A program made the translations under genes and the position numbers. A stretch of DNA of 36,026 nt from positions 1-36,026 of the forward strand of contig JAJYGA010000134.1 in assembly GCA_021785255.1 (NCBI GenBank), in the 5' to 3' direction. Positions 14,824 to 29,722 of the stretch are shown in pieces. Numbering within the stretch: the first letter of the stretch is position 1; each line of letters starts with the position of its first letter. Below the pieces are notes generated by a model. The model worked only from the letters and a program-made list of their open reading frames with translations, was not told the origin of the DNA and did not search any database. The stretch comes from Actinomycetes bacterium. GTDB lineage: Bacteria > Actinomycetota > Acidimicrobiia > Acidimicrobiales > Acidimicrobiaceae.

Positions 14824-15714
14824 GTGAATTTATCTGTAAGAGACGCTAATTTAGATCTCATGCAAATTGAAAAGGTAGGCATAGTCGGTTCTGGGATCAT
14901 GGGATCCGCAATAGCCGAGGTCACATTGTTGGGTGGATACAAAGTTACATTACATTCCCGACAAAGTACTACAGCGCACGTTATGATGCAGCAGTTAAAA
15001 GACTCCTTTTCAAAGATGGTCAAGAGAGAAATACTCTTACAAAGTAAGGCAAATGAAGCTATTTCAAGGTTTGAAGTTACCACCGAGATGCGAGATTTAA
15101 TCGACTCCGATATCGTTATAGAGTCCATAATCGAAGATCTTGAAACCAAACGAGAACTCTTTCAACGCCTCGATGGACTTTGTAAAGTCGACACAATTTT
15201 AGCTACCAATACCTCCACTTTGCCTGTGGTTGAAATAGCAGTTGCTACCAAAAGACCTGAACTCGTCTGTGGTATACATTTTTTTAACCCAGCGGCACGT
15301 ATGAAACTCGTTGAGGTAGTTACCCCTATTACGGTCGCCACGAGTACCGTTGATACGGTCATATCCTTTGTAACCTCCCTAGGCAAAGAACCCGTGAAGG
15401 TAAAAGACGAAGCTGGCTTCATAGTAAATGCTTTACTATTTCCTTTGCTCAATAGTGCTATTTACATGCTTGAACGCCACGTCGCCTCGATGGAAGAGAT
15501 CGATAGATCGATGCAGTTAGGATGTGGTTTCCCTATGGGGCCGTTCAGACTCTTAGACCTTATAGGTTTAGATACATCTCTAAAAATTCTCGAAACTCTT
15601 CACTTTGAATCAAGATCGCCTTCTACGGTCCCAGCACCAACGCTTCGAAGGCTGGTAGCAGCCGGACGACTTGGCAAGAAGTCACGATGCGGCTTTTATG
15701 ACTATGGACCATAA
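14824..15714 (+). CDS. 3-hydroxybutyryl-CoA dehydrogenase
   Basis: Interconverts acetoacetyl-CoA and (S)-3-hydroxybutyryl-CoA with NAD(P)H. The Rossmann motif is GIVGSGIMGSAIAE, then VIESIIEDLETKRELF and ILATNTSTLPV. The catalytic histidine is in GIHFFNPAARMKLVEVV, followed by DEAGFIVNALLFPLLNSA and GCGFPMGPFRLLDLIG. A C-terminal GKKSRCGFYDY closes it, a full-length single-domain member (296 residues from the GTG). Two starts are possible, GTG 14824 or ATG 14860. Neither has a strong Shine-Dalgarno, and the homology begins just after the latter. It lies 27 bp upstream of ethylmalonyl-CoA mutase, so probably the same transcript, supplying the C4 precursor. Confidence 0.9.
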   Translation: MNLSVRDANLDLMQIEKVGIVGSGIMGSAIAEVTLLGGYKVTLHSRQSTTAHVMMQQLKDSFSKMVKREILLQSKANEAISRFEVTTEMRDLIDSDIVIESIIEDLETKRELFQRLDGLCKVDTILATNTSTLPVVEIAVATKRPELVCGIHFFNPAARMKLVEVVTPITVATSTVDTVISFVTSLGKEPVKVKDEAGFIVNALLFPLLNSAIYMLERHVASMEEIDRSMQLGCGFPMGPFRLLDLIGLDTSLKILETLHFESRSPSTVPAPTLRRLVAAGRLGKKSRCGFYDYGP

Positions 15715-15741
15715 GTTTTATTGAGTCAAAGGAGCAGATAG

Positions 15742-17727
15742 GTGCAATCGAAAAACCCAACTACCCCAACGAAAAGAACCCGTGATGAACCCTGGGTGAT
15801 GAGAACCTATTCCGGACATTCAAGCGCCAAAGCGTCAAACGAACTTTATAAGACCAACTTAGCCAAAGGACAGACTGGACTATCAATAGCGTTTGATCTG
15901 CCAACTCAACTAGGATACAACCCGGATCACCCCCAATCAAGAGGGGAGGTCGGCAAAGTGGGAGTACCGGTCGTACACCTAAGGCACATGGAAGAACTAC
16001 TGCAGGGCATTCCAATCGACAAGATGAATACCTCCATGACCATAAACGCCACGGCTCCATGGCTTCTGGGCCTCTATCTTGCAATGGCCAAGAGACAAGG
16101 TGTCCAGTACGCATGTCTTAGTGGAACAATACAAAACGACATCGTTAAGGAGTACCTATCTCGAGGAACCTTCATATTTCCCCCTCAACACTCCCGCCGT
16201 CTTACGATTGACACCATCGCCTATACAGTAAGAAACGTTCCCAAATGGAATCCCATCAACGTCTGCTCCTACCACCTTCAGGAGGCAGGAGCCACTCCCT
16301 CACAAGAGATTGCTTACTCGCTTGCAACTGCAATCTCTATCCTCGATGCCGTTAGAGCCAGCGGTCAAGTAAGTTCAAGCGACTTTCCTAAGGTAGTGGA
16401 AAGAATCTCATTTTTCTGCAACTCCGGAATCCGCTTCATCGAAGAGACAGCAAAGATGAAGACCTTCACCCGGCTGTGGGACAAATTGACTGAGCAACGA
16501 TATGGCATCTCCGATCCAAGATATCGAAGATTTAGATACGGAGTCCAAGTCAACTCTTTAGGTCTCACTGAAACTCAACCTGAGAACAACATTCCTCGGA
16601 TCGTCTTGGAGACACTCGGAGTAACCTTGGCTAAAGACGCACGTGCCCGAGCCTTGCAATTGCCAGCTTGGAACGAGGCTATAGGGCTTCCTCGCCCTTG
16701 GGACCAACAATGGTCATTACGGATACAGCAGATTCTTGCCTTTGAGACGGATCTACTAGAGTATCAAGACATCTTCGAAGGTTCCTTGGTCATGGAGTCT
16801 CTAATCAGCGAGATATCGGAGCAGGCAGAGAACGAACTAGATGAAATCATCGAAGCTGGAGGAGTCTTCGAGATGATCGACGAGCTTAAAGCTCGGTTAG
16901 TAAAAAGTCAGTCTTTACGCACTTCCAAGATCGAAAATGACGAGATCACCGTAGTTGGGGTCAATCGCTTCACAGAGTCCGAAGATTCTCCACTAAGTAG
17001 CTCCGCAGAACTCCACTTTCTTATCGCCGATAAAAAAGCCGAGGCTTTCCTCATAAAGGATCTCAACGATTGGATCGCGAAGCGTTCAAAACGAAAGTAT
17101 GAAGAAGCAAAGAATACACTAATAAGAGCCGCCCGAGAAAATACGAACATCATGGAACCTACTATCTCCTTCGCTCTAGCTGGAGGTACCACAGGAGAGT
17201 GGGCCGACACCCTGAGAGAGATATTTGGCGAATATCGAGCCCCTACCGGTTTGTCTGGAGGTGCCGGACAACGAAGGACCGCCTTATCTCACCTTGCGAC
17301 AGAAGCTCAGACTCTCGCAGGTGGCCCACCTCGCCTACTAGTGGGGAAGCCGGGTCTAGATGGTCACTCCAACGGTGCAGAACAGATCGCTGTCGCAGCC
17401 AGGGACGCTGGGTTTGAAGTAATATACGACGGAATCCGCCTCACGCCAAGACAAATTGCCATAGCGGCCCGAGATGAAGACGTAGACATCGTAGGGGTTT
17501 CCATCTTGTCCGGGTCACATTTAGAGCTCTTGGGCGACCTTGTCAAGGAGATGAAAAATCTAGACGTAGATGTTCCATTAGTGGTTGGAGGAATCATACC
17601 AGATAAGGATCGCAAACTTCTCTTTGACCTCGGCATCAAAGCGATATACACTCCAAAGGACTACAAAGTTGAGTTCATGCTGAAAGAAATGCTTCAACTT
17701 GTAGCACAAAAAAGGAAAGGGGCCTAG
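15742..17727 (+). CDS. ecm: Ethylmalonyl-CoA mutase (coenzyme B12-dependent)
   Basis: Rearranges (2R)-ethylmalonyl-CoA to (2S)-methylsuccinyl-CoA with adenosylcobalamin. The 661 residues comprise an acyl-CoA-binding barrel (about 15-500) and a C-terminal B12 domain (about 530-661). The base-off motif D540-G-H542-x-x-G is followed by VSILSGS and VVGGIIP. Family-defining differences from methylmalonyl-CoA mutase are RTYSGHS (not RQYAGF), AFDLPTQLGY (not FDLATHRGY), MTINATAPW and NVCSYHLQEAGATP. It has the single-chain length of Ecm rather than a two-subunit Mcm. GTG start with AAAGGAG upstream. Crotonyl-CoA carboxylase/reductase and the epimerase nearby support the assignment. A related acyl-CoA mutase subclass cannot be wholly excluded. 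Confidence 0.88.
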   Translation: MQSKNPTTPTKRTRDEPWVMRTYSGHSSAKASNELYKTNLAKGQTGLSIAFDLPTQLGYNPDHPQSRGEVGKVGVPVVHLRHMEELLQGIPIDKMNTSMTINATAPWLLGLYLAMAKRQGVQYACLSGTIQNDIVKEYLSRGTFIFPPQHSRRLTIDTIAYTVRNVPKWNPINVCSYHLQEAGATPSQEIAYSLATAISILDAVRASGQVSSSDFPKVVERISFFCNSGIRFIEETAKMKTFTRLWDKLTEQRYGISDPRYRRFRYGVQVNSLGLTETQPENNIPRIVLETLGVTLAKDARARALQLPAWNEAIGLPRPWDQQWSLRIQQILAFETDLLEYQDIFEGSLVMESLISEISEQAENELDEIIEAGGVFEMIDELKARLVKSQSLRTSKIENDEITVVGVNRFTESEDSPLSSSAELHFLIADKKAEAFLIKDLNDWIAKRSKRKYEEAKNTLIRAARENTNIMEPTISFALAGGTTGEWADTLREIFGEYRAPTGLSGGAGQRRTALSHLATEAQTLAGGPPRLLVGKPGLDGHSNGAEQIAVAARDAGFEVIYDGIRLTPRQIAIAARDEDVDIVGVSILSGSHLELLGDLVKEMKNLDVDVPLVVGGIIPDKDRKLLFDLGIKAIYTPKDYKVEFMLKEMLQLVAQKRKGA

Positions 17728-17774
17728 AAAGCTATCATCAAAGCGGTTATAAATAGAGAGTAAGTGTTCAGTTT

Positions 17775-18578
17775 ATGAAAAATAATACCGACAAAACATC
17801 TATGAAACTGAGGCTGGCCGTCCTGTCCCTGACCGTCATAGCAGTAGCCACTGCCGCATTGGGCTACATGGAGCATATGAGCTACTTGCCCTATGCAGCC
17901 GTTGCTATATCGATCATTGCTGCATTAGTAGCCGTTTCAAAAGCTTCAAAACCAAAGAAAGAGCGCTTCATCTCTCAGATCAGCCCAGCGCTTCCAGTCA
18001 AGAATCCCAACCCAGCCGACGCTGATTCAGGCATAGCAAAAATAACCCAAAATGACATCACTTCCGACGGTCGGGTCGCGTGGGAAGGGATTTCGGATCC
18101 AGTGACAGGCATGCTAAACGATCTTTTTTTTGCAGGCCTTGTGGCAACTAAGGTGGCTACGGCTCGAAGAAGGCTTTGGCCTGTATCTATAGCTCTTTTG
18201 CACGTAAACTTCGGATCTGCTGTTTCAGATAAAAGTGACGAGCAAAAAGCTGCCAACGAGTTCGCCGAATCCATCATGTCGACTATAAGAGATGCTGACG
18301 TAGCTTGTAGGCTGTCAAGAAAAACCTTCGCCCTCATTTTGGACGACACAGACGAAGATGGAGGAGCTTGGGCTTCAGAGCGGATACAACTAGCTCAGGC
18401 TAGAAAAGGCGACTCCCGCATCTCCAAAGTGTCAGCAGGAGTCGCAAGTTATCCTAGCCACGGTATCGAGGCCACCGAGATTCTCTCAAAAGCACGAGAG
18501 GCCTTAGAAAAAGCCGTTAACAATGCGGATCTGCCCGGTCTCGGTCTTGTGATCGTTGCACCTCAGAGGCCTCTTTAG
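17775..18578 (+). CDS. Membrane protein with degenerate GGDEF domain, I-site retained
   Basis: A 267-residue protein. Two hydrophobic segments (about 13-31 and 38-56) are followed by a linker and a GGDEF-like domain (about 105-260). The domain has the usual opening DPVTGMLNDLFF and ending VSAGVASYPSHGIEATEILSKAREALEKA. At the signature position the sequence is SRKTF (181-185) instead of GGDEF, and the first metal-site segment reads ALLHVNF, so cyclase activity is not expected. An RxxD motif (R172-D175) sits exactly five residues before, as in product-inhibition I-sites. It could therefore be a c-di-GMP-binding receptor. Located 47 bp after ecm on the same strand. Confidence 0.8.
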   Translation: MKNNTDKTSMKLRLAVLSLTVIAVATAALGYMEHMSYLPYAAVAISIIAALVAVSKASKPKKERFISQISPALPVKNPNPADADSGIAKITQNDITSDGRVAWEGISDPVTGMLNDLFFAGLVATKVATARRRLWPVSIALLHVNFGSAVSDKSDEQKAANEFAESIMSTIRDADVACRLSRKTFALILDDTDEDGGAWASERIQLAQARKGDSRISKVSAGVASYPSHGIEATEILSKAREALEKAVNNADLPGLGLVIVAPQRPL

Positions 18579-18641
18579 AACCAGACGTTACAGGTCTTTG
18601 AAACTCTCCGCCGTTTCATCGTTTCAGTAATGGATCTTCTC

Positions 18642-18836
18642 CTACAATTTCTTTGGTCTTGATCTCGTGATAGGCAAAGGAGTGTTCCACCAGCGAGACG
18701 AAAACCTCCAGGTCATCGGGTCTTTCCTTCTAACCGTTCCGACAGAGGTCTCCCTCTGTTTCCGTAACTCCAAATAAGCCGCCGTTACAGCGGCTGTCTC
18801 CTCTTCGGAGGTTAGTCTCTCTCTCACACCGTCCAT
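18642..18836 (-). CDS. Acyl-CoA carboxylase epsilon-subunit-like small protein
   Basis: A 64-residue protein starting 12 bp after the pccB stop on the same strand. AAGGTG is a ribosome site overlapping the pccB stop region, so the two are probably coupled. It has an acidic helix (LTSEEETAAVTAAYLELRKQ) followed by a basic, Trp-rich C-terminal part (PMTWRFSSRWW). Size, position and layout match the actinobacterial AccE/PccE epsilon subunits, which strengthen the biotin-carrier/carboxyltransferase complex. Sequence similarity in this family is weak, so the call rests mainly on context. Confidence 0.55.
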   Translation of the reverse strand: MDGVRERLTSEEETAAVTAAYLELRKQRETSVGTVRRKDPMTWRFSSRWWNTPLPITRSRPKKL

Positions 18837-18848
18837 AGATAAATCACC

Positions 18849-20408
18849 TTAGAGTGGGACGTTTCCGTGTTTGCGCTTGGGAAGATCTTCTCGCTTTGAA
18901 CGCAAAACTCTCAGTGAACGGATCAGTATCTTCCTCGTCTCAGCCGGATCTATCACATCGTCGACGAATCCCCTTTCCGCCGCGATATATGGATTCGCAT
19001 ATCGTTCGGTATATTGTTCAACAAGTTCCTTACGCCTTCCAGCAGGATCTTCGGCAGCCGCAAGCTCTCTCCTATGAACCACCTCAACAGCTCCCTGAGG
19101 TCCCATCACGGCCAACTCCGCTGATGGCCATGCATAGGCGAAGTCAGCCCCAACTGACTTAGAGTTCATGACCACATAGGCGCCACCGTAAGCCTTTCTT
19201 GTGATAACCTGAATCCGTGGCACCGTAGCTTCACAGTAGGCATAAAGGAGCTTGGCTCCGTGTCTGATAATTCCGCCATACTCTTGATCCACCCCTGGCA
19301 TAAATCCAGGCACGTCCACAAACGTTACTATGGGAATATTGAAAGCATCACATGTTCTCACAAATCGAGCTGCCTTCTCTGAAGAGTCGATGTCCAAAAC
19401 GCCGGCAAGTACCGCGGGCTGGTTGCCCACGATGCCAACTACGTGTCCATCAAATCTAGCAAATCCGCAAGTAATGTTCATGGCCCAATACGGATAGTAC
19501 TCAAAGTACTCACCACCATCGACGCTAGCAGTTATGACGGTCTTCATATCGTAAGGTTGGTTCGAAGATGGCGGAATGGCATCTCTAAGTTCAGGAACAA
19601 GCCTCTCCGGATCGTCGTTGGGTTCAACAAACGGGGGTTCTTCCAAATTGTTAGACGGTAAGAAGTCGAGCAGGTAACGGACCTCATCCAGACACTGTTT
19701 CTCGTCATCCAAAACAAAAGTCGCAACTCCAGATTTGGTAGCATGACTCATCGCACCACCAAGCTCCTCGAGAGTAACATCTTCACCCGTAACAGTCTTC
19801 ACAACATCGGGTCCCGTAATGAACATATGAGATGTCTCTTTAACCATAAAGATAAAGTCTGTCATGGCAGGAGAGTAGACCGCTCCTCCTGCACAAGGTC
19901 CCATGATCACCGATATCTGAGGAATAACGCCTGAACTAGAAACGTTTCGACGGAATATTCCTCCATAAGAATGAAGCGAAACCACCCCTTCTTGAATTCG
20001 CGCGCCCGCTCCATCGTTCAATCCAATCATCGGTACACCAACAGAGGCGGCCAAGTCCATAACCTTATGGATCTTCTCAGCAAATACCTCGCCCAAGGCG
20101 CCCCCAAAAACAGTGAAATCCTGAGCGAAGACACAGACTCTCCGACCGTTTATAGTACCGAAACCCGTTATAACTCCATCGGTGTAGGGTCTATTTTCCT
20201 CGAGGCCCATCCCATGGGCACGGTGTCTGGCAAGCATGTCCAACTCTTGAAATGAGTTCTCATCCAAAAGGTACTCAAGACGCTCTCGCGCTGTCATCTT
20301 GCCCTTCATGTGTTGCCGTTCCACCGCCGCCGGTGATCCAGCGTTCAAAGCCTCTTGTCTTCTTCGTTCAAGTTCTACTAACCGTTCCGACATTAGATGT
20401 TCTGACAT
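18849..20408 (-). CDS. pccB: Acyl-CoA (propionyl/acetyl-CoA) carboxylase, carboxyltransferase beta subunit
   Basis: Transfers carboxyl from carboxybiotin to an acyl-CoA, forming methylmalonyl-CoA from propionyl-CoA and/or malonyl-CoA from acetyl-CoA. About 519 residues with two crotonase-fold halves. The first oxyanion glycines are in [15 protein letters not shown], the second in [19 protein letters not shown]. The substrate-selectivity position (Asp422 in Streptomyces PccB) is Val here. I start at ATG 20408. A TTG at 20426 extends the frame by six codons, and neither has its own Shine-Dalgarno. A strong AGGAGG lies further up, before a possible 14-residue leader ORF. The biotin carboxylase subunit is not in the window. 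The epsilon-like gene follows. Confidence 0.9.
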
Positions 20409-20419
20409 AGTTTCAAAGG

Positions 20420-20464
20420 CTACCAACTCCGAGAGGTCTTTGAATTCACGGACTTGCCTATCAC
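20420..20464 (-). CDS. Possible 14-residue leader ORF upstream of pccB
   Basis: GTG at 20464-20462 starts a 14-codon frame ([14 protein letters not shown]) ending in TAG at 20422-20420, 11 bases before the pccB ATG at 20408. It is preceded at nine bases by AGGAGG (20474-20479), by far the best ribosome site in the region. A leader whose termination reloads ribosomes at pccB would explain why pccB has no site of its own. No amino-acid run typical of attenuators is present. The peptide itself is unlikely to have a function. Confidence 0.35.
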
Positions 20465-20473
20465 AACAAAAAA

Positions 20474-20479
20474 CCTCCT
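20474..20479 (-). promoter_or_regulatory. Strong Shine-Dalgarno far upstream of pccB
   Basis: AGGAGG on the minus strand lies 65 bases before the pccB ATG, too far to serve it directly. It is correctly spaced (nine bases) for the GTG of the small leader ORF at 20464. Confidence 0.5.
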
Positions 20480-20562
20480 ATATCCAGTATTTATCTTTTG
20501 TTTTATGGTTTTTCCCACTTTGAGTGACCTATTTTCCCACGATTTGTGTTATTAGTAGTAAT

Positions 20563-21294
20563 ATGAAAGACGTTGAGTATCATTATGAGATAATGGACAA
20601 GCTTCCCGGAAGTGATTTCCTCCCTAGCATCGATGAAACGCTCACATATCTAGAAAACGATCCTTCTATGGATGACCTCCTTTACGTAGGCGGCGATATT
20701 ACCCCCACATCCCTACTTGCCGGGTACCAAAAAGGTGTATTTCCTATGAAGGTGAGCGACCTTGAGGAAGAGTTCGTGGGCTGGTTTTCACCTCGTACTC
20801 GCGCAATAATTCAATTGTACCCAGAGCTGAAAGAGGTGGAAATAAAAGTCTCGAAGTCCTTGAAGAAAGCAATGAGAGAGTTTGACTTCAAAGTTGACAC
20901 CCGTTTCCGAGATGTCGTAGAGTCCTGCGCATATCTCAGATCAGATGGAAACTGGATCGACAAAGACTACATCGACGTGTATGAAACTCTATTCACCGCT
21001 GGATACGCTCACAGCTACGAGGTGTACGATCGTTCTGAACCCAACAACCTTATAGGTGGTCTCTTTGGAGTCGGTGTGGGCAGATTCTTCTCTGGTGAGT
21101 CGATGTTTCATCTAGTATCCAACGCCTCCAAAGCGGCCTTCTATCATTTGGTCGCAGATTTAAGATCCAATGGATACGAACTCTTAGATGGCCAGTGGCC
21201 CACACACCATCTCAAGTCTTTGGGCATGGAAGAGATAGATAGACTCCAGTATCTAAGGATGCTCAAATCCACTTTCGCGAGAGAACACATGTGA
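20563..21294 (+). CDS. aat: Leucyl/phenylalanyl-tRNA-protein transferase
   Basis: Transfers Leu or Phe from aminoacyl-tRNA to the N-terminal Arg/Lys of proteins, marking them for ClpS-ClpAP/ClpCP degradation under the bacterial N-degron rule. Family blocks are LLYVGGDITPTSLLAGYQKG, VFPM, GWFSPRTRAII, DGNWIDKDYIDVYETLFTAG, HSYEVYD and IGGLFGVGVGRFFSGESMFH (the conserved catalytic Glu). LLDGQWPTHHLKSLG carries the conserved Gln. About 243 residues, typical length. The start is uncertain: ATG 20563, ATG 20593 or GTG 20524, none with a clear ribosome site. Divergent from pccB, and its end is only 12 bp from the convergent glycosylase gene. Confidence 0.9.
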   Translation: MKDVEYHYEIMDKLPGSDFLPSIDETLTYLENDPSMDDLLYVGGDITPTSLLAGYQKGVFPMKVSDLEEEFVGWFSPRTRAIIQLYPELKEVEIKVSKSLKKAMREFDFKVDTRFRDVVESCAYLRSDGNWIDKDYIDVYETLFTAGYAHSYEVYDRSEPNNLIGGLFGVGVGRFFSGESMFHLVSNASKAAFYHLVADLRSNGYELLDGQWPTHHLKSLGMEEIDRLQYLRMLKSTFAREHM

Positions 21295-21306
21295 GGCACA
21301 TCCTTT

Positions 21307-22236
21307 TCATGCATCAACGTTTATGTGATAAAAAAGCAGCTGAGAGATCCAGCCTCTATAGGGAGACCATCCATAGCTAATGTTACGTATGTTTTCTTCA
21401 ACAAGCGGGCTACCCAAAGCGTACAAGCTTGCCACGGCCTTTTTTAAACCAAGGTCACCTGAGGGGAAGACATCCTCAAATCCCAAGCCCCTAAGAAGCA
21501 CATACTCAGCGGTCCAGCGCCCCACGCCGTAGTAGCGCGTAAGGGATGCCATAGCCGCGTCGTAGTCGAGCTTCTTGAGCACAGCGAAGTCCAGTTGTTT
21601 TGAAACCAAGGCCTTAGAGATCTCCACGAGACCTCTGGCCTTCGTGCCACTAAACTGGGCCTCTCTAAGCACGTCAATTGACAACGACGCAACGTCGCCT
21701 GGTCTAGGTGTCAATAAATAGTCTTTGCCCTCAAATTGCAAAGTCGCACCTCCCGACACTTCGTGCAATCGAAGCAGCAGAGTCCGGGCAAATCCAACGT
21801 TCACTTGTTGAGCCGCAATAGCCCAAAGTAGCGACTCATATGGTTCGTAGTACAGAAATGGTCGAACCAATCCATATCTCTCATGCAACAGACCAACTGC
21901 TTCATCTCGAGAAAACAGATCCAACAAGCCATCAGGGGGAGAAAAGACGTAAAAGCACTCTACAATTCGCTCTCGAACCTTTGCAAGATCCAAATGAGAC
22001 AGCGACATCCCGTGTAATTCGACGCGCAATCCCTGTTGATTTGGCGTCTCTGAGACACTTAATATCGCTGTCCTATCAGAATCTTGCAGATAGACAGCCT
22101 TACGAAAATGCTCCGCTGATACAGTTTCGAACACTATGCCTGGAGCCCTACTCAGATACGACAACGTAGAGAAGAGACTGAAGTCTCTAGGAGTTGCGAT
22201 ATCGCAACTCAAAGTCACTACCGTTTCGTCTAACAC
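21307..22236 (-). CDS. AlkA-like DNA-3-methyladenine glycosylase (HhH-GPD)
   Basis: A 309-residue base-excision repair glycosylase. An N-terminal AlkA-type domain (about 1-110) precedes the HhH-GPD core (about 125-300). The core opens SLLWAIAAQQVNVGFARTL. The helix-hairpin-helix is in LTRYYGVGRWTAEYVLLRGL, followed by FPSGDLGLKKAV, in which D261 corresponds to the catalytic Asp of AlkA. No iron-sulfur cysteine cluster is present, as expected for AlkA rather than Nth/MutY. It would remove alkylated purines. GTG start, 62 bp after the thiolase stop on the same strand, so cotranscription is possible without a metabolic link. Confidence 0.85.
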   Translation of the reverse strand: MLDETVVTLSCDIATPRDFSLFSTLSYLSRAPGIVFETVSAEHFRKAVYLQDSDRTAILSVSETPNQQGLRVELHGMSLSHLDLAKVRERIVECFYVFSPPDGLLDLFSRDEAVGLLHERYGLVRPFLYYEPYESLLWAIAAQQVNVGFARTLLLRLHEVSGGATLQFEGKDYLLTPRPGDVASLSIDVLREAQFSGTKARGLVEISKALVSKQLDFAVLKKLDYDAAMASLTRYYGVGRWTAEYVLLRGLGFEDVFPSGDLGLKKAVASLYALGSPLVEENIRNISYGWSPYRGWISQLLFYHINVDA

Positions 22237-22298
22237 AATAATCCACTATTAAAGCGCGCAGCGCCCCACAGAACCAGCACTAGCTCTACCTTTGCAGC

Positions 22299-23492
22299 TC
22301 ATGGCGACACAGTCTCAACAATTAAGGCATCACCTTGTCCGCCACCGCCGCAAAGAGCTGCAGCACCAACACCTCCACCTCTCCTACCAAGTTCCATTAG
22401 GAGCGTAAGAGCCAATCGAGCCCCTGAAGCACCAATGGGATGTCCCAACGCTATAGCGCCTCCATTTACGTTCACAACCTCCTCTGATATCGATAGAGCT
22501 TCCATTGACGCTATGGCGACAGCAGCAAAGGCTTCGTTAATCTCAAAGAGATCTACGTCTCCTACGCTTTTCGAGATCTTTTGCAATGCAGCAGAGATAG
22601 CGTTGGATGGTTGGTGCAAAAGAGATGTATCAGGACCTGCGACCTGACCATAAGAAAGAATTCGTCCAAGGGGTCTCACCCCAAGTTTTGTCAATACCCG
22701 CTCAGACACTATTACAAGAGCCGCAGCACCATCAGATATTTGAGAAGCATTACCGGCAGTGACGGTACCATCCTTCGAAAATGCTGGTCGAAGCCGCCCT
22801 AACGACTCCACCGTAGTACCTGGTCTCACACCCTCATCTACATCTACGACGATAGGGTCACCTTTGCGATTTGGCACGGAAACTGCTACGATCTCCTCAG
22901 CAAACCTTCCAGATTTAATCGCCGCAGCGGCTCGCTCATGAGAACTTGCCGAAAAAGCGTCCTGTCTTTCCCTCGTTATGTTAGGTGTATCCCTACTCAC
23001 ATAGTGATCCGTTGAAAGACCCATGGCCTCGTGTTCAAAAGAACAGGTGAGCCCGTCATGCATCATTGAGTCAATGAGAGTCGCATCACCTAGTCGAAAT
23101 CCCTGGCGTGCCTTGGGTAGTAGGTGTGGCGCACCAGACATGGATTCCATACCCCCAGCAACAACAATATCAGCCTCCCCTGCTTTGATCATGAGATCGG
23201 CTAAATAGATAGCATTCAACCCAGAGAGACACACTTTATTTATGGTAGTAGCAGGTACGGACATAGGAATTGATGCCAACGTAGCCGCTTGACGAGCCGT
23301 AATTTGACCTTGGCCAGCCTGGAGGACCTGTCCCATCAGTACATAGTCCACATGCTCTCCCACTAAGCCTGCTCGTCTCAGTGCTTCGGATATGGCAAAA
23401 CCACCTAGATCCATTGCACTAAAGGCTGAAAGAGTTGAGGACAACTTCCCAATGGGCGTGCGTGCACCTGATAGAACATAAGATCGGGACAT
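22299..23492 (-). CDS. Acetyl-CoA C-acetyltransferase (thiolase)
   Basis: Condenses two acetyl-CoA to acetoacetyl-CoA, or the reverse. The 397 residues show the complete thiolase set. The acylated Cys88 is in [13 protein letters not shown], followed by [15 protein letters not shown] and [11 protein letters not shown]. The catalytic His is in [17 protein letters not shown] and the second Cys in [12 protein letters not shown]. The length and motifs fit the biosynthetic/degradative type II (AtoB/PhaA) group. AAGGAG precedes the ATG by seven bases. It is divergent from crotonyl-CoA carboxylase/reductase, which places it at the entry of the ethylmalonyl-CoA route. Confidence 0.92.
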
Positions 23493-23627
23493 ACAATCTC
23501 CTTACAAACAACGTTTAAAGTTATCCTAGTACCGTCAGAACATCCAAACTTGAGCCACTCGCACATACTTTGGTATCCGACATTTAGTGAGCCAACTAAT
23601 GATAGATTTTCGTATATTCTTACAACT

Positions 23628-24992
23628 ATGAACTCCTTTAGGCAAGCCATCGAAGCCGAGGCCTCTCCCGAAGAACTAAGGTCAATTCCAATTCCTGAAA
23701 CCTATCGTGCTGCATTTGTAAGAAAAGATGAGGTAGCCATGTTTGAAGGGTTACCTAGCTCTGAGAAAGATCCGCGGAAGTCTCTTCACGTGGAAGAGGT
23801 ACCGGTTCCAGAGATGGCACCTGACGAAGTTCTTGTCGCGGTTATGGCCTCCTCCATCAATTACAACACCGTCTGGACCTCCCTCTTTGAACCGTTGCCA
23901 ACGTTCGCGTTTCTTGAACGATTAGGCAAAAGTAGTTCCTATTGGAACAGACGTCACGATCTTCCTTATCATGTACTTGGATCTGACGGTTCAGGAGTCA
24001 TTTTGCGAACAGGATCAGCCGTTAGAAATTGGAAAATTGGAGATAAAGTCGTAATTCACTGCAACTACGTAGATGATCAAGATCCCACCGGGCATGATGA
24101 CTCTATGTTGTCTTATGATCAAAAGATCTGGGGATTTGAATCGAACTTTGGTGGTCTCGCTGATCTAACCCTAGTCAAGGCAAACCAACTTATGCCAAAA
24201 CCTACACATCTCTCATGGGAGGAGGCAGCTTGTAACGCGCTTTGCAACTCTACCTCATATCGCATGCTGGTTTCAAAAAATGGAGCCTCTTTGAAACAAG
24301 GACAACGGGTCCTTATCTGGGGAGCTACTGGCGGCATCGGAGGATACGCTGTACAGTATGCTCTCAATGGAGGGGCTACGCCAATTGGAGTCGTCTCCTC
24401 TGAGGACAAGGTCGAACTCCTACATGACCTAGGCTGTGAAGCCGTCATCAATAGAAGCGAAAAGAAGTACAGATTCTGGAAAGACGAGCATACGCAAGAC
24501 GAATCTGAATGGCGTCGCTTTGGAAAAGATATCCGTTCTCTTGTTGGTGATGATCCAGATATCGTCTTCGAACATCCCGGTCGACAAACCTTTGGAGCTT
24601 CAGTCTTTGTCACCAAACGAGGCGGCCTTATCATGACCTGTGCCGCTACAACAGGATACATGATCGAATACGACAATAGGCATCTCTGGATGAAGCTGAA
24701 GACAATAAAATCTTCTCATTTCGCCAACTACCGAGAGGCCTGGGACGCCAACAAGCTAATCTGCGAAGGCAAGATTCAACCTATTTTATCCGCCACCTAC
24801 TCGCTCCAGCAAGTTGGTGAAGCAACGAATTTAGTCCACAAGAACCAACACGAGGGCAAGGTTGGAATTTTATGCCTGGCTGAAAAACCCAACATGGGAA
24901 TCGACAACCACGAACTTAGAGAGAAAGTTGGCGAGGACAAGATAACACTTTTTGCACGGTATGGCAAAACAATTGGATCTAGTAACAACTAA
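23628..24992 (+). CDS. ccr: Crotonyl-CoA carboxylase/reductase
   Basis: Reductively carboxylates crotonyl-CoA with NADPH and CO2 to (2S)-ethylmalonyl-CoA, the signature reaction of the ethylmalonyl-CoA pathway. It is an MDR-superfamily enzyme of 454 residues. Diagnostic blocks are ESYRA-like ETYRAAF, DPRKSLHVEEVPVPE, SSINYNTVWTSLFEP, WGFESNFGG, the NADPH-binding WGATGGIGGYAVQ, YRFWKDEHTQ and HFANYREAW. Residues N80, F170, E171 and H364 coincide almost number for number with the CO2-binding N81, F170, E171 and H365 of the Kitasatospora enzyme. This supports true carboxylase function over a plain reductase. I start at ATG 23628, where the homology begins. An in-frame TTG lies at 23550. The epimerase gene follows by 29 bp. 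Confidence 0.95.
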   Translation: MNSFRQAIEAEASPEELRSIPIPETYRAAFVRKDEVAMFEGLPSSEKDPRKSLHVEEVPVPEMAPDEVLVAVMASSINYNTVWTSLFEPLPTFAFLERLGKSSSYWNRRHDLPYHVLGSDGSGVILRTGSAVRNWKIGDKVVIHCNYVDDQDPTGHDDSMLSYDQKIWGFESNFGGLADLTLVKANQLMPKPTHLSWEEAACNALCNSTSYRMLVSKNGASLKQGQRVLIWGATGGIGGYAVQYALNGGATPIGVVSSEDKVELLHDLGCEAVINRSEKKYRFWKDEHTQDESEWRRFGKDIRSLVGDDPDIVFEHPGRQTFGASVFVTKRGGLIMTCAATTGYMIEYDNRHLWMKLKTIKSSHFANYREAWDANKLICEGKIQPILSATYSLQQVGEATNLVHKNQHEGKVGILCLAEKPNMGIDNHELREKVGEDKITLFARYGKTIGSSNN

Positions 24993-25021
24993 AACATGGG
25001 TGGAAGGAATACAGAAAGAAA

Positions 25022-25423
25022 ATGAAACCACAGGAGATTGATCACATAGCAATAGCAGTCAAAGAGCTACAACCGGCGATCGACCTATACACTCAAATCT
25101 TGGGAGCGTCAGTTGAACACCGAGAACTTGTCGAAAGTGATGGGATAGAAGAAGTGCTTTTAAAGGTCTCCGACACGTTTATCCAGCTCCTCTGTCCTAC
25201 TACTGCCAACTCACCGGTGCAGAAGTACATAGACAAACATGGAGAAGGTCTTCACCATATGGGTCTTCGGGTAGAAAACTGCGAGGAAGCTTTAAAAGAT
25301 GCAATTGCAGCTGGGGCAACCAGCATCGATTCGAATCCGCGCCCTGGATCACGCGGCACCACAGTAGCGTTTTTGCATCCTAAGTCGACCTTTGGAGTTC
25401 TCATCGAACTCGTACAGCCTTGA
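25022..25423 (+). CDS. epi: Methylmalonyl-/ethylmalonyl-CoA epimerase
   Basis: A VOC-superfamily metalloenzyme (133 residues, usual length) that interconverts the 2R and 2S forms of methylmalonyl-CoA and ethylmalonyl-CoA. Metal ligands H8 (DHIAIAV), Q55 (FIQLL), H79 (LHHMGLRV) and E129 (LIELV) match the His-Gln-His-Glu set of the Propionibacterium epimerase. The A-G-A-T and SRGTTVAFLHP segments are typical. The start is ATG 25022, preceded by an A/G-rich AGAAAGAA. It lies directly downstream of ccr, where it is needed because Ccr makes the 2S epimer while Ecm uses 2R. Confidence 0.92.
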   Translation: MKPQEIDHIAIAVKELQPAIDLYTQILGASVEHRELVESDGIEEVLLKVSDTFIQLLCPTTANSPVQKYIDKHGEGLHHMGLRVENCEEALKDAIAAGATSIDSNPRPGSRGTTVAFLHPKSTFGVLIELVQP

Positions 25424-27019: not shown

Positions 27020-29722
27020 TTGAAGGATCAGGATGCAGAACGTACCACTTTGTGGAAGTCGGATGGTCGGCAACTTTTCTCCCGCACTATCGAACCCTTT
27101 GTGTCTCAAAGCACCTTATCCTTATATGAACTCGAAGGTCGCCTCTGGATAGCACGACTCGTAGTCGGATCACTATTCGTCCTTGCGGTTCTTTCCCTTC
27201 GAATCAAGGTCGAAGGTGTACTCCTGGGAGTAGCAACGCTCGCTTACATCCTGGGATACCTTCTGCTTCGATCAAGTCGAGTAAGATGTCCATGGTTCTG
27301 CTTAATCCTTTTTACCTTAGACATCACCTTCATCTCCGCCGCTGCCTCATTTACCGGTGGATCAAACAGTCCGCTTTGGTTAATGTTTCTCTTTCCCGTG
27401 GCAGTGATGTCAGTTACAAGGGGCACTCGATCCGCCCTAGCACTTGGGACTATCGCCCTTTTAATAAGAGCAGTTGTAATAGGAGACATGAGTCCATCCG
27501 GACGTGTTGCACCTTTAGTGGCTCTCATCTACGGAATCGCCCTAATCGTTGGTTTTGTTCATAAAGAGGTCACCAAGAGTCAAAGAAGCCTTACGAACGC
27601 AGTGCTCACGCTGCAACAAGGAGTACTCGGGTTCACCTCTGAAGAATCTACTGCTGATCTACTAAAGCGCAGCATTGCCCTTGGAGCGGAACTCACAGGT
27701 GCTACTTTCGGAGCGGTGTCTATATGGAACGAGCAGAACGACAACATCTACTTTGAAACTTTCGGATTGAAAAAAGCAGAGATTACTCATCTAGGTCATC
27801 CGCCTTCAGCAGCGGGACTATTGCTTAGGACAGCGTTATCAAAGTCCCCGATACGGCTGCGTGACGACGGAATAGACATCGGTGAACTGCGACTTCCTCC
27901 TGGTCATCCTCCGATCAGAAGCTTCCTCGGAGTACCAATTACATCAATCGACAATCGCAAAGGAGCCTTTTATTTGATAAATAAGGTCGGCGCCAGCGCG
28001 TTTACCCTTGAAGATGAGCGACTGTGTCAGATGATGGCCGCTCATGTAGCCTCTGCTGTTGTAGTTCGGAGATTGGTCGAGAGTCAAAAGGAGATGCATG
28101 ACTCACTGTTGCAGATGCTCGTTAAGATAAACGATTCAAGAGAAAAAGCCTCAACGGGTCACTCTGAGCGCGTACGACAATATGCACGTGCCTTAGCAGA
28201 ACAAGCCGGAGTCGAAGGTGAACAGCTTGAGTTGATAGCTGCTGCAGGTCTGCTGCACGACATAGGCAAGATGGGTATACCGGAGTCAATTTTGGGTAAA
28301 CCTGGACCTCTGAGTGACGAAGAACGCTCTCTTGTTATGACTCATTCAACGATAGGGGCTGACATAGTCGTCCAGGCGCTACCTCTTTCAGGTGCAGCAC
28401 CATTTATTCGCCATCATCATGAACACTGGAATGGACTAGGCTACCCCGATTCTCTAAAGGGAGAAGAGATACCTCTTGGCGCACGAATTGTAGCCATAGC
28501 TGATGCTCTAGACTCAATGACCGACGACCGACCCTACAGATCAAGCAGATCGCTTTCAGAAGCGATCGATGAAATCATGCTCTGTTCAGGTTCACAGTTT
28601 GATCCTCAGTTGGTCTCTCATCTCAAGGAAGTTGTCACAAGAATAGTTGGCGATCTCCAAAGTACAAAAGACGACTTGATCCATCGTCACGAACCCACTC
28701 TTGCCGAACAACATAGCGCCGCGAGAACAGCTGGGTGGCGCTTGTTCACACGTCTTTCAAGAGAACTTGATTCACTCCTTGATCCCAACAAGACAGCAGA
28801 AAACATACTGAAGCTCCTATGTGATGATCTCGATGTCTCCGGAGCAACGATTGGCCTTTTGGAATCGAACAGTGAGTCACTTAAATTTATTGCGTGGGAA
28901 GGAGTCCCCGTGGTTGCACCCGTAGGCACAGAACTACCCAAAGGAGTAGGACTGCCATGGGTCGCGTTAGAAAACGATCAACCGCAGGTGTTCATGGATA
29001 TAGTCTCAGATCCCAGATATGGGGCATCACACAGTATCGAGACTGCAACGGGAGCCTACCTGCCACTAAGAGCCAGCGGAAAGACTGTCGGCATCTTGAT
29101 ACTATATCGCGCCGTACCGCAGAGTTTCGGAGAACAAGAACTTGCATATTTGGAAGCGGTAGCTACCCCAGTTGCAGAACTACTCCTCATCGCTCAACTT
29201 CATCGAGAGGTGCAGCAGACATCCATTACCGATCCCTTGACCAATGTATGGAATCGACGTTACGGGATCGAGCAGCTGACTCGCTCATGTGCGCATCAAT
29301 CCCGAAGCGGTGCTACGTTCTCGCTGATTTTGTTGGATCTTGACGGGTTTAAAGCAATCAACGATAGATTCGGCCATCTCGCCGGCGATAAAGTACTTCA
29401 GGAGTCAGTAAAACGAATCGAACGCTGTCTGCGAGCAGAAGATGTTCTGGCACGCTATGGAGGCGACGAGTTCCTAATAGTTACTAGGGAAGGTTCCTTG
29501 GAAGATGCAGCAACACTCGCAAAAAGGGTAACGGCATCAACTCAATACGGAGTCATAAATCACGAGGGTAATGAGATACTCTTACCACACTGGTCCGTTG
29601 GAGTTGCAAACTGCCCACAAGACGGCACCTCTGCGAACGAACTTCTGCACGTAGCAGACACGAGACTTTATGAGAACAAACGTTCTGGATCGACGAGAAA
29701 AGCTAGCGGAGCCACATACTGA
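27020..29722 (+). CDS. Bifunctional c-di-GMP enzyme: membrane-GAF-HD-GYP-GAF-GGDEF
   Basis: A 900-residue protein that should both make and break c-di-GMP. About five or six hydrophobic helices occupy 42-180. GAF1 is at about 205-350. The HD-GYP domain at about 365-545 has H413-D414 in GLLHDIGKMGIP and the full HHEHWNGLGYP motif at 466-476. GAF2 is at about 590-725. A C-terminal GGDEF domain (about 735-890) has LLDLDGFKAINDRFGH, an intact GGDEF at 814-818 and RxxD (805-808) five residues before it, an inhibitory I-site. Both catalytic signatures are complete. TTG start with GGAGG upstream. The sequence before it is decayed, and no partner gene is adjacent. Confidence 0.92.
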   Translation: MKDQDAERTTLWKSDGRQLFSRTIEPFVSQSTLSLYELEGRLWIARLVVGSLFVLAVLSLRIKVEGVLLGVATLAYILGYLLLRSSRVRCPWFCLILFTLDITFISAAASFTGGSNSPLWLMFLFPVAVMSVTRGTRSALALGTIALLIRAVVIGDMSPSGRVAPLVALIYGIALIVGFVHKEVTKSQRSLTNAVLTLQQGVLGFTSEESTADLLKRSIALGAELTGATFGAVSIWNEQNDNIYFETFGLKKAEITHLGHPPSAAGLLLRTALSKSPIRLRDDGIDIGELRLPPGHPPIRSFLGVPITSIDNRKGAFYLINKVGASAFTLEDERLCQMMAAHVASAVVVRRLVESQKEMHDSLLQMLVKINDSREKASTGHSERVRQYARALAEQAGVEGEQLELIAAAGLLHDIGKMGIPESILGKPGPLSDEERSLVMTHSTIGADIVVQALPLSGAAPFIRHHHEHWNGLGYPDSLKGEEIPLGARIVAIADALDSMTDDRPYRSSRSLSEAIDEIMLCSGSQFDPQLVSHLKEVVTRIVGDLQSTKDDLIHRHEPTLAEQHSAARTAGWRLFTRLSRELDSLLDPNKTAENILKLLCDDLDVSGATIGLLESNSESLKFIAWEGVPVVAPVGTELPKGVGLPWVALENDQPQVFMDIVSDPRYGASHSIETATGAYLPLRASGKTVGILILYRAVPQSFGEQELAYLEAVATPVAELLLIAQLHREVQQTSITDPLTNVWNRRYGIEQLTRSCAHQSRSGATFSLILLDLDGFKAINDRFGHLAGDKVLQESVKRIERCLRAEDVLARYGGDEFLIVTREGSLEDAATLAKRVTASTQYGVINHEGNEILLPHWSVGVANCPQDGTSANELLHVADTRLYENKRSGSTRKASGATY

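Follow-up and report, generated by a model that had tools for sequence, protein, structure and literature searches.

A 267-residue protein encoded directly downstream of an ethylmalonyl-CoA mutase gene (ecm) appears to be a catalytically dead, membrane-anchored c-di-GMP receptor of the PopA/SgmT kind that serves ethylmalonyl-CoA/acyl-CoA metabolism, a reading to which we give a probability of roughly 60%. The protein, here called psGGDEF for its degenerate GGDEF domain, lies in the window, that is, the whole 36,026-nucleotide stretch of DNA that was analysed. c-di-GMP is known chiefly for its part in motility, biofilm and development, and a dedicated receptor beside ecm through much of an actinobacterial class would tie it to acetyl-CoA assimilation.

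Architecture and active-site residues of psGGDEF

The gene and the elements discussed below, all on the forward strand, are as follows.

17775-18578 (+): psGGDEF, degenerate GGDEF protein of 267 aa (open reading frame with ATG start, Pfam GGDEF match, AlphaFold model)
17793-17945 (+): membrane hairpin at the N-terminus, with helices at residues 7-33 and 38-57 (AlphaFold model, two hydrophobic segments)
18093-18521 (+): GGDEF-fold domain, residues 107-249 (Pfam GGDEF match, model fold)
18165-18170 (+): R131-R132, an Arg pair conserved in the family, lying two and three residues past the PleD R313 position
18201-18203 (+): H143, where PleD has its metal-binding Asp, D327 (alignment)
18288-18299 (+): I-site motif R172-x-x-D175 (aligned to PleD R359xxD362)
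18315-18329 (+): SRKTF, residues 181-185, replacing GGDEF (translation of the reading frame, PleD alignment)
18381-18383 (+): R203, equivalent of PleD R390 and third I-site residue (alignment; role of R390 from passages of PMC7288161)

Pfam recognised the GGDEF domain at residues 107-249 with an E-value of 7.7e-13 and a score of 49 bits, the cut-off being 23.8; it was the only family above its cut-off in the scan of psGGDEF, in which no output domain was recognised, and SLATT_1 was rejected as a description of the N-terminus because it reached 16.5 bits against a cut-off of 26.3. The AlphaFold model has a mean pLDDT of 86 and a pTM of 0.67, and its best matches among solved structures (the first 12 listed) are GGDEF domains with Z-scores of ~22 over 151-161 residues; the top matches include the c-di-GMP-bound structures 3ign, GcbC (5euh) and PleD (9g86 and 2wb4). 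As modelled, the protein is a two-helix membrane anchor followed by a GGDEF fold. Among 66 family reading frames found downstream of ecm, two hydrophobic segments were seen in 47, one in 12 and none in 7.

A phmmer alignment places the psGGDEF stretch RDADVACRLSRKTF opposite RAIDLPCRYGGEEF of PleD (whose residue numbers were obtained by counting along the chain), and in it R172 and D175 fall exactly on PleD R359 and D362 with the five-residue spacing kept. The catalytic side of the domain looks very different: beyond the SRKTF and H143 replacements, S151 stands opposite the substrate Asn N335, and the NDTFGHxxGDE substrate loop is shortened relative to PleD. An active diguanylate cyclase was rejected because psGGDEF has neither GG[DE]EF nor the metal-binding Asp; a GTP-sensing degenerate domain of the CC3396 kind was rejected as well, since the positions of PleD D327 and N335 are replaced, and highly variable among family domains, and the D344 region is shortened. 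Judged from the alignment, the A site is dead, the examined catalytic and substrate residues having been replaced. The preliminary description of this DNA had reported the same reading frame, SRKTF for GGDEF, loss of the first metal-binding Asp and an RxxD at the exact -5 position, all of which the translation and the PleD alignment bear out.

According to passages of PMC7288161, the full I-site of PleD is composed of R359, D362 and R390 from one molecule and R313 from the next. The position of R313 is occupied by T129 in psGGDEF, and the nearby R131/R132 pair may take over its role as the arginine contributed by a neighbouring molecule.

Conservation, control domains and phylogeny

The conservation of these residues was assessed in the psGGDEF family, membership of which was assigned to every match of a family profile, built from 47 members, in the loci given. 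Loci L011-L063 and L204-L236 partly repeat genomes, and identical domains were removed before counting, which left 135 distinct domains, 134 of them scorable at the motif (the domain of L172 runs off the end of its locus) and 133 at R203, where two could not be scored. Not one of the 134 has an intact GG[DE]EF, and 133 keep RxxD (R172 133/134, D175 133/134). The PleD R390 equivalent, R203, is kept in 132/133 domains, R132 in 134/134 and R131 in 131/134, the remaining three carrying Lys; R179, four residues past D175, varies (119/134). The sole RxxD exception, at 1538-2335 of L121 (genome G052), has AGGEF and reads LDQRHTAARLAGGEF; this gene sits ~1.3 kb downstream of ecm. All six arginine codons are represented at R172 across 65 reading frames downstream of ecm, which indicates that the residue has been retained through repeated synonymous change. 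The preliminary description had proposed a candidate c-di-GMP receptor and singled out conservation of RxxD in orthologues as one point on which the proposal would turn; it is well supported by the conservation found, and the genome also carries GGDEF, EAL and PilZ genes.

As controls we used 52 other GGDEF domains, namely 40 low-scoring rows from five related genomes and 12 domains from the genome of the window, chosen by hand with family rows and most fragment rows left out. Under an A-site rule that also admits S, A or R as the first G and Q as the second acidic residue, 40 of the 52 control domains have an A-site, and RxxD is missing from 14 of these; of the other 12, whose A-site is degenerate, 9 lack RxxD and 3 keep it. 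In these counts L248 and L297 align poorly, and L294, scored as RxxD-positive, is doubtful owing to an insert. The absence of RxxD from many control domains implies that the GGDEF fold does not require it. RxxD is mostly absent from A-site-degenerate controls, and the psGGDEF family has the opposite pattern. A chance occurrence of RxxD was rejected on the 133/134 conservation, the six Arg codons and the control domains.

Within its own taxonomic family, psGGDEF had matches in 31 of 42 genomes, with 0/9 in genus g8, and across the order in 169 of 397 (E <=1e-8, a threshold at which other GGDEF proteins may be included). In the class, 113 of 296 genomes matched the 47-row family profile (E <=1e-15), weaker matches being mostly in long frames. 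The named relatives, Ferrithrix thermotolerans (DSM 19514, locus L013) and Acidimicrobiaceae/Actinomycetes MAGs, make Acidimicrobiia most likely the class that carries the family. A tree built from 148 GGDEF domains placed 87 of 87 family members in one clade with an SH support of 0.996, which shows a single origin for the family. A clear member was not found outside the class in a phylum-wide search, where matches reached at most 106.5 bits in frames of 394-742 aa, and in ten loci outside the class with the nearest GGDEF domains, 9/10 have an intact GGEEF. The tenth, a degenerate domain (GDHLF; L244, genome G641), keeps RxxD and adjoins the family in the tree (0.972); ecm was not found within the stretch examined around it. 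Tandem pairs of family genes occur in L131 (G365), L178 (G265) and L221 (G043), the first two pairs lying downstream of ecm.

Linkage to ecm and to c-di-GMP genes

Four genes of acyl-CoA metabolism around psGGDEF bear on its possible function.

14824-15714 (+): 3-hydroxybutyryl-CoA dehydrogenase-like gene (hbd), upstream of ecm (similarity)
15742-17727 (+): ecm, ethylmalonyl-CoA mutase of the MeaA type, 661 aa (Pfam MM_CoA_mutase and B12-binding)
18849-20426 (-): acyl-CoA carboxylase carboxyltransferase (pccB-like), convergent (similarity)
23550-24992 (+): ccr, crotonyl-CoA carboxylase/reductase (TIGR01751, 565.8 bits, cut-off 378.55)

The ecm product scored 466 bits against the NCBIfam Mcm equivalog, whose cut-off is 876, and was 51.8-58.6% identical to the best 13 of 30 listed plasmid rows (out of 410 matching records); two of these 13, annotated 'protein meaA', were 54.0 and 54.9% identical, whereas rows annotated scpA (methylmalonyl-CoA mutase) were 35.0-35.5% identical. 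Methylmalonyl-CoA mutase was rejected as its identity, the protein being below the Mcm cut-off and closer to meaA than to scpA. The ecm stop codon ends at 17727, so that the distance of 47 bp to psGGDEF given in the preliminary description agrees with the coordinates, as its naming of ecm does with the meaA similarity. An ethylmalonyl-CoA pathway-like cluster extends over 14824-25423 and comprises hbd, ecm, the carboxyltransferase, a thiolase, ccr and a glyoxalase-fold (epimerase-like) gene. The order hbd-ecm-psGGDEF-pccB (the last convergent) recurs in 7 of 7 named relatives. No terminator-like site was found on the forward strand between ecm and psGGDEF. A promoter-like match on that strand, at 17624-17652, falls within the 3'-terminal part of ecm and makes separate transcription of psGGDEF possible; such matches are near background frequency (5 versus a shuffle mean of 4.1).

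Synteny was counted in genomes found among the first 150 rows listed for each of the ecm and GGDEF queries. In 52 of the 68 genomes listed for both, spanning 17 families of the order by a hand count from the tables, a GGDEF match followed ecm on the same strand at a distance of no more than 1 kb; of the other 16, one overlaps ecm, nine are 1.1-4.3 kb downstream and six lack such nearness in the rows listed. The reverse count took 140 of the 150 listed ecm rows and found the family reading frame in 64/140 downstream regions, always on the ecm strand; psGGDEF was not found downstream of 76/140 ecm genes, some of them on contigs that end early. A possible start no more than 172 bp from the ecm stop is available to 56 of 66 family reading frames downstream of ecm, seven of them overlapping it. 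Beyond the order, ecm was upstream in 7 of 8 loci of the class (families f63, f71, f79 and f80), L235 (f68) being without it. The psGGDEF-ecm link is old, and many families of the class have conserved it.

This linkage has been lost in several lineages. Genus g8 has cleanly lost psGGDEF and kept ecm, the stop of which is ~220-235 bp from the end of pccB (L066-L068), and psGGDEF is unlinked from ecm in f59, f28 and others. The flanks of eight chosen unlinked loci were scanned (L061, L220, L221, L235, L325, L328, L329 and L333): psGGDEF stands directly before an enoyl-CoA hydratase gene in 3 of the 4 f59 loci scanned (L325, L328, L329), beside a CoA-transferase III gene in L221 and beside an AMP-binding enzyme in L235, and no acyl-CoA gene was found next to it in L333 (f59), L061 and L220, three of the eight. 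On the basis of this gene neighbourhood, psGGDEF could link c-di-GMP to carbon flow, as the preliminary description had suggested.

The genome of the window contains 11 strong GGDEF domains, 11 EAL domains and 1 PilZ domain, and 8 of its 12 GGDEF control domains have GGDEF letter for letter; from its gene content, the organism probably makes c-di-GMP. Within the window, some 8.4 kb from psGGDEF, a 900-aa protein (27020-29722, +) joins HD_5 (HD-GYP-like), GAF and a canonical GGDEF with RxxD, and is likely a c-di-GMP turnover protein. EAL was matched in 295 of 397 genomes of the order and in 131 of the 148 genomes listed for psGGDEF (by search match, not each verified by sequence), an association whose Fisher p of 2.6e-7 is inflated by relatedness, phylogeny being a confounder.

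The psGGDEF-listed genomes with no EAL match number 17, of which 16 belong to family f59 and one is G228. Besides psGGDEF, exactly one GGDEF domain that scores 113-141 bits and has both GGDEF and RxxD intact is present in 16/16 of these f59 genomes, on a different contig from psGGDEF, and a third GGDEF match, weak and partial, occurs in seven of them; their EAL-negative status leaves room for other phosphodiesterases, e.g. HD-GYP. The f59 members of the family have lost R179 and kept RxxD (read in 14/16 genomes). Family f59, in which a single intact-motif GGDEF protein and one candidate receptor occur without an EAL match, may hold one of the simplest natural c-di-GMP circuits, and would allow one to ask directly what c-di-GMP does. 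Genomes G044 and G126, each with ecm and a single GGDEF protein, lack psGGDEF, which is thus not obligatory; G063 and G093 have ecm with neither a GGDEF match nor psGGDEF. psGGDEF occurs together with c-di-GMP genes even where few of these are left; the converse requirement does not hold.

Proposed role, competing explanations and known systems

That psGGDEF binds c-di-GMP, forms dimers and affects Ecm in any way is our inference. In the proposed mechanism, c-di-GMP, probably as its usual intercalated dimer, would bind the I-site through R172, D175 and R203, which R131/R132 of a second psGGDEF molecule would perhaps complete. Binding would change the assembly of psGGDEF at the membrane, and the protein, as the last gene product of the hbd-ecm-psGGDEF group, would relay that state to the ethylmalonyl-CoA/acyl-CoA branch. 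The simplest route for its output would be to touch or position Ecm. Synteny between psGGDEF and ecm is no proof of interaction, and we hold only tentatively the more specific idea that psGGDEF binds Ecm and that c-di-GMP alters the activity of the mutase or holds it at the membrane, in a manner conserved across many families; we think it possible, with the odds against it. If it were true, c-di-GMP would directly govern a step of central carbon metabolism that depends on B12, and would do so via a dedicated receptor, one kept even where the network consists of one intact-motif GGDEF protein and psGGDEF.

Other explanations take the dead domain in different directions. psGGDEF could be a regulatory pseudo-cyclase that is paired with an active GGDEF enzyme and sets its output, the I-site cross-linking the mixed pair and the ecm linkage being incidental operon history. 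In each of the 16 f59 genomes just one intact-motif GGDEF protein does accompany a single psGGDEF, and the I-site operates between two molecules (passages of PMC7288161), but psGGDEF is syntenic chiefly with ecm or with other genes of acyl-CoA metabolism, and the two f59 genes occupy different contigs; we regard this pairing as unlikely. It is improbable, too, that the I-site pocket holds another ligand, be it a different nucleotide, a CoA ester or a compound related to cobalamin: the conserved R131, R132 and W199, lacking at the same places in PleD, suggest a specialised surface, and the neighbours of psGGDEF are acyl-CoA enzymes, yet all three single-molecule I-site residues of PleD are retained in the family and psGGDEF-listed genomes mostly retain EAL or an intact-motif GGDEF protein. 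RxxD might, finally, be kept purely for the fold, psGGDEF binding no nucleotide and acting as a scaffold or as a chaperone of Ecm. The motif is widespread in GGDEF domains and other residues, presumably structural, are likewise invariant in the family; its absence from 14/40 A-site and 9/12 non-A-site domains of the window's own and five related genomes, and its retention in f59 members that dropped R179, weigh against this view, and we give it little credence.

A receptor with a dead GGDEF domain would have precedents. PopA carries receiver domains, and PopA and SgmT serve the cell cycle or the extracellular matrix, whereas psGGDEF adjoins ecm. Like psGGDEF, PopA of Caulobacter and SgmT of Myxococcus combine a degenerate A-site with an intact I-site, through which c-di-GMP binding has been reported (passages of PMC5052742 and PMC3509222). 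SgmT additionally carries GAF, kinase and receiver domains, unlike psGGDEF, which consists of a membrane hairpin and a GGDEF domain only. In SgmT, R763A abolished c-di-GMP binding and I-site mutants were wild-type-like in motility and fruiting (PMC3509222, in part), which means that a conserved I-site need not yield an obvious phenotype.

With the PleD-type diguanylate cyclases psGGDEF shares the fold (model Z ~22) and the I-site residues R359, D362 and R390; unlike PleD, it has its catalytic and substrate residues replaced and the loop shortened, and a receiver domain was not found by Pfam. GdpP/YybT of Bacillus is built of membrane helices, PAS, a degenerate GGDEF and DHH/DHHA1. psGGDEF too combines membrane helices with a degenerate GGDEF; a GdpP/YybT-like protein was nevertheless rejected, as PAS and DHH/DHHA1 were not found in psGGDEF by Pfam. 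The GGDEF domain of GdpP has ATPase activity (passages of PMC7288161).

The mode of action that we propose, a degenerate A-site with an I-site that serves as receptor, is already known. No report of the family or of its ecm link was found in the open-access literature searched: papers listed on c-di-GMP together with methylmalonyl-CoA mutase, on GGDEF proteins of acidimicrobia and on degenerate or inactive GGDEF receptors did not evidently concern it, and the texts, in the portions available, that join c-di-GMP and ethylmalonyl-CoA mutase yielded incidental co-mentions only. GGDEF numbers in Actinobacteria are treated in PMC10746217 (in part), and control of carbon metabolism by c-di-GMP in an actinobacterium has a precedent in GlgX of Streptomyces, which the abstract of PMC9530166 describes as directly controlled by the second messenger. 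In GlgX the enzyme itself binds c-di-GMP, whereas for psGGDEF we propose a separate receptor protein.
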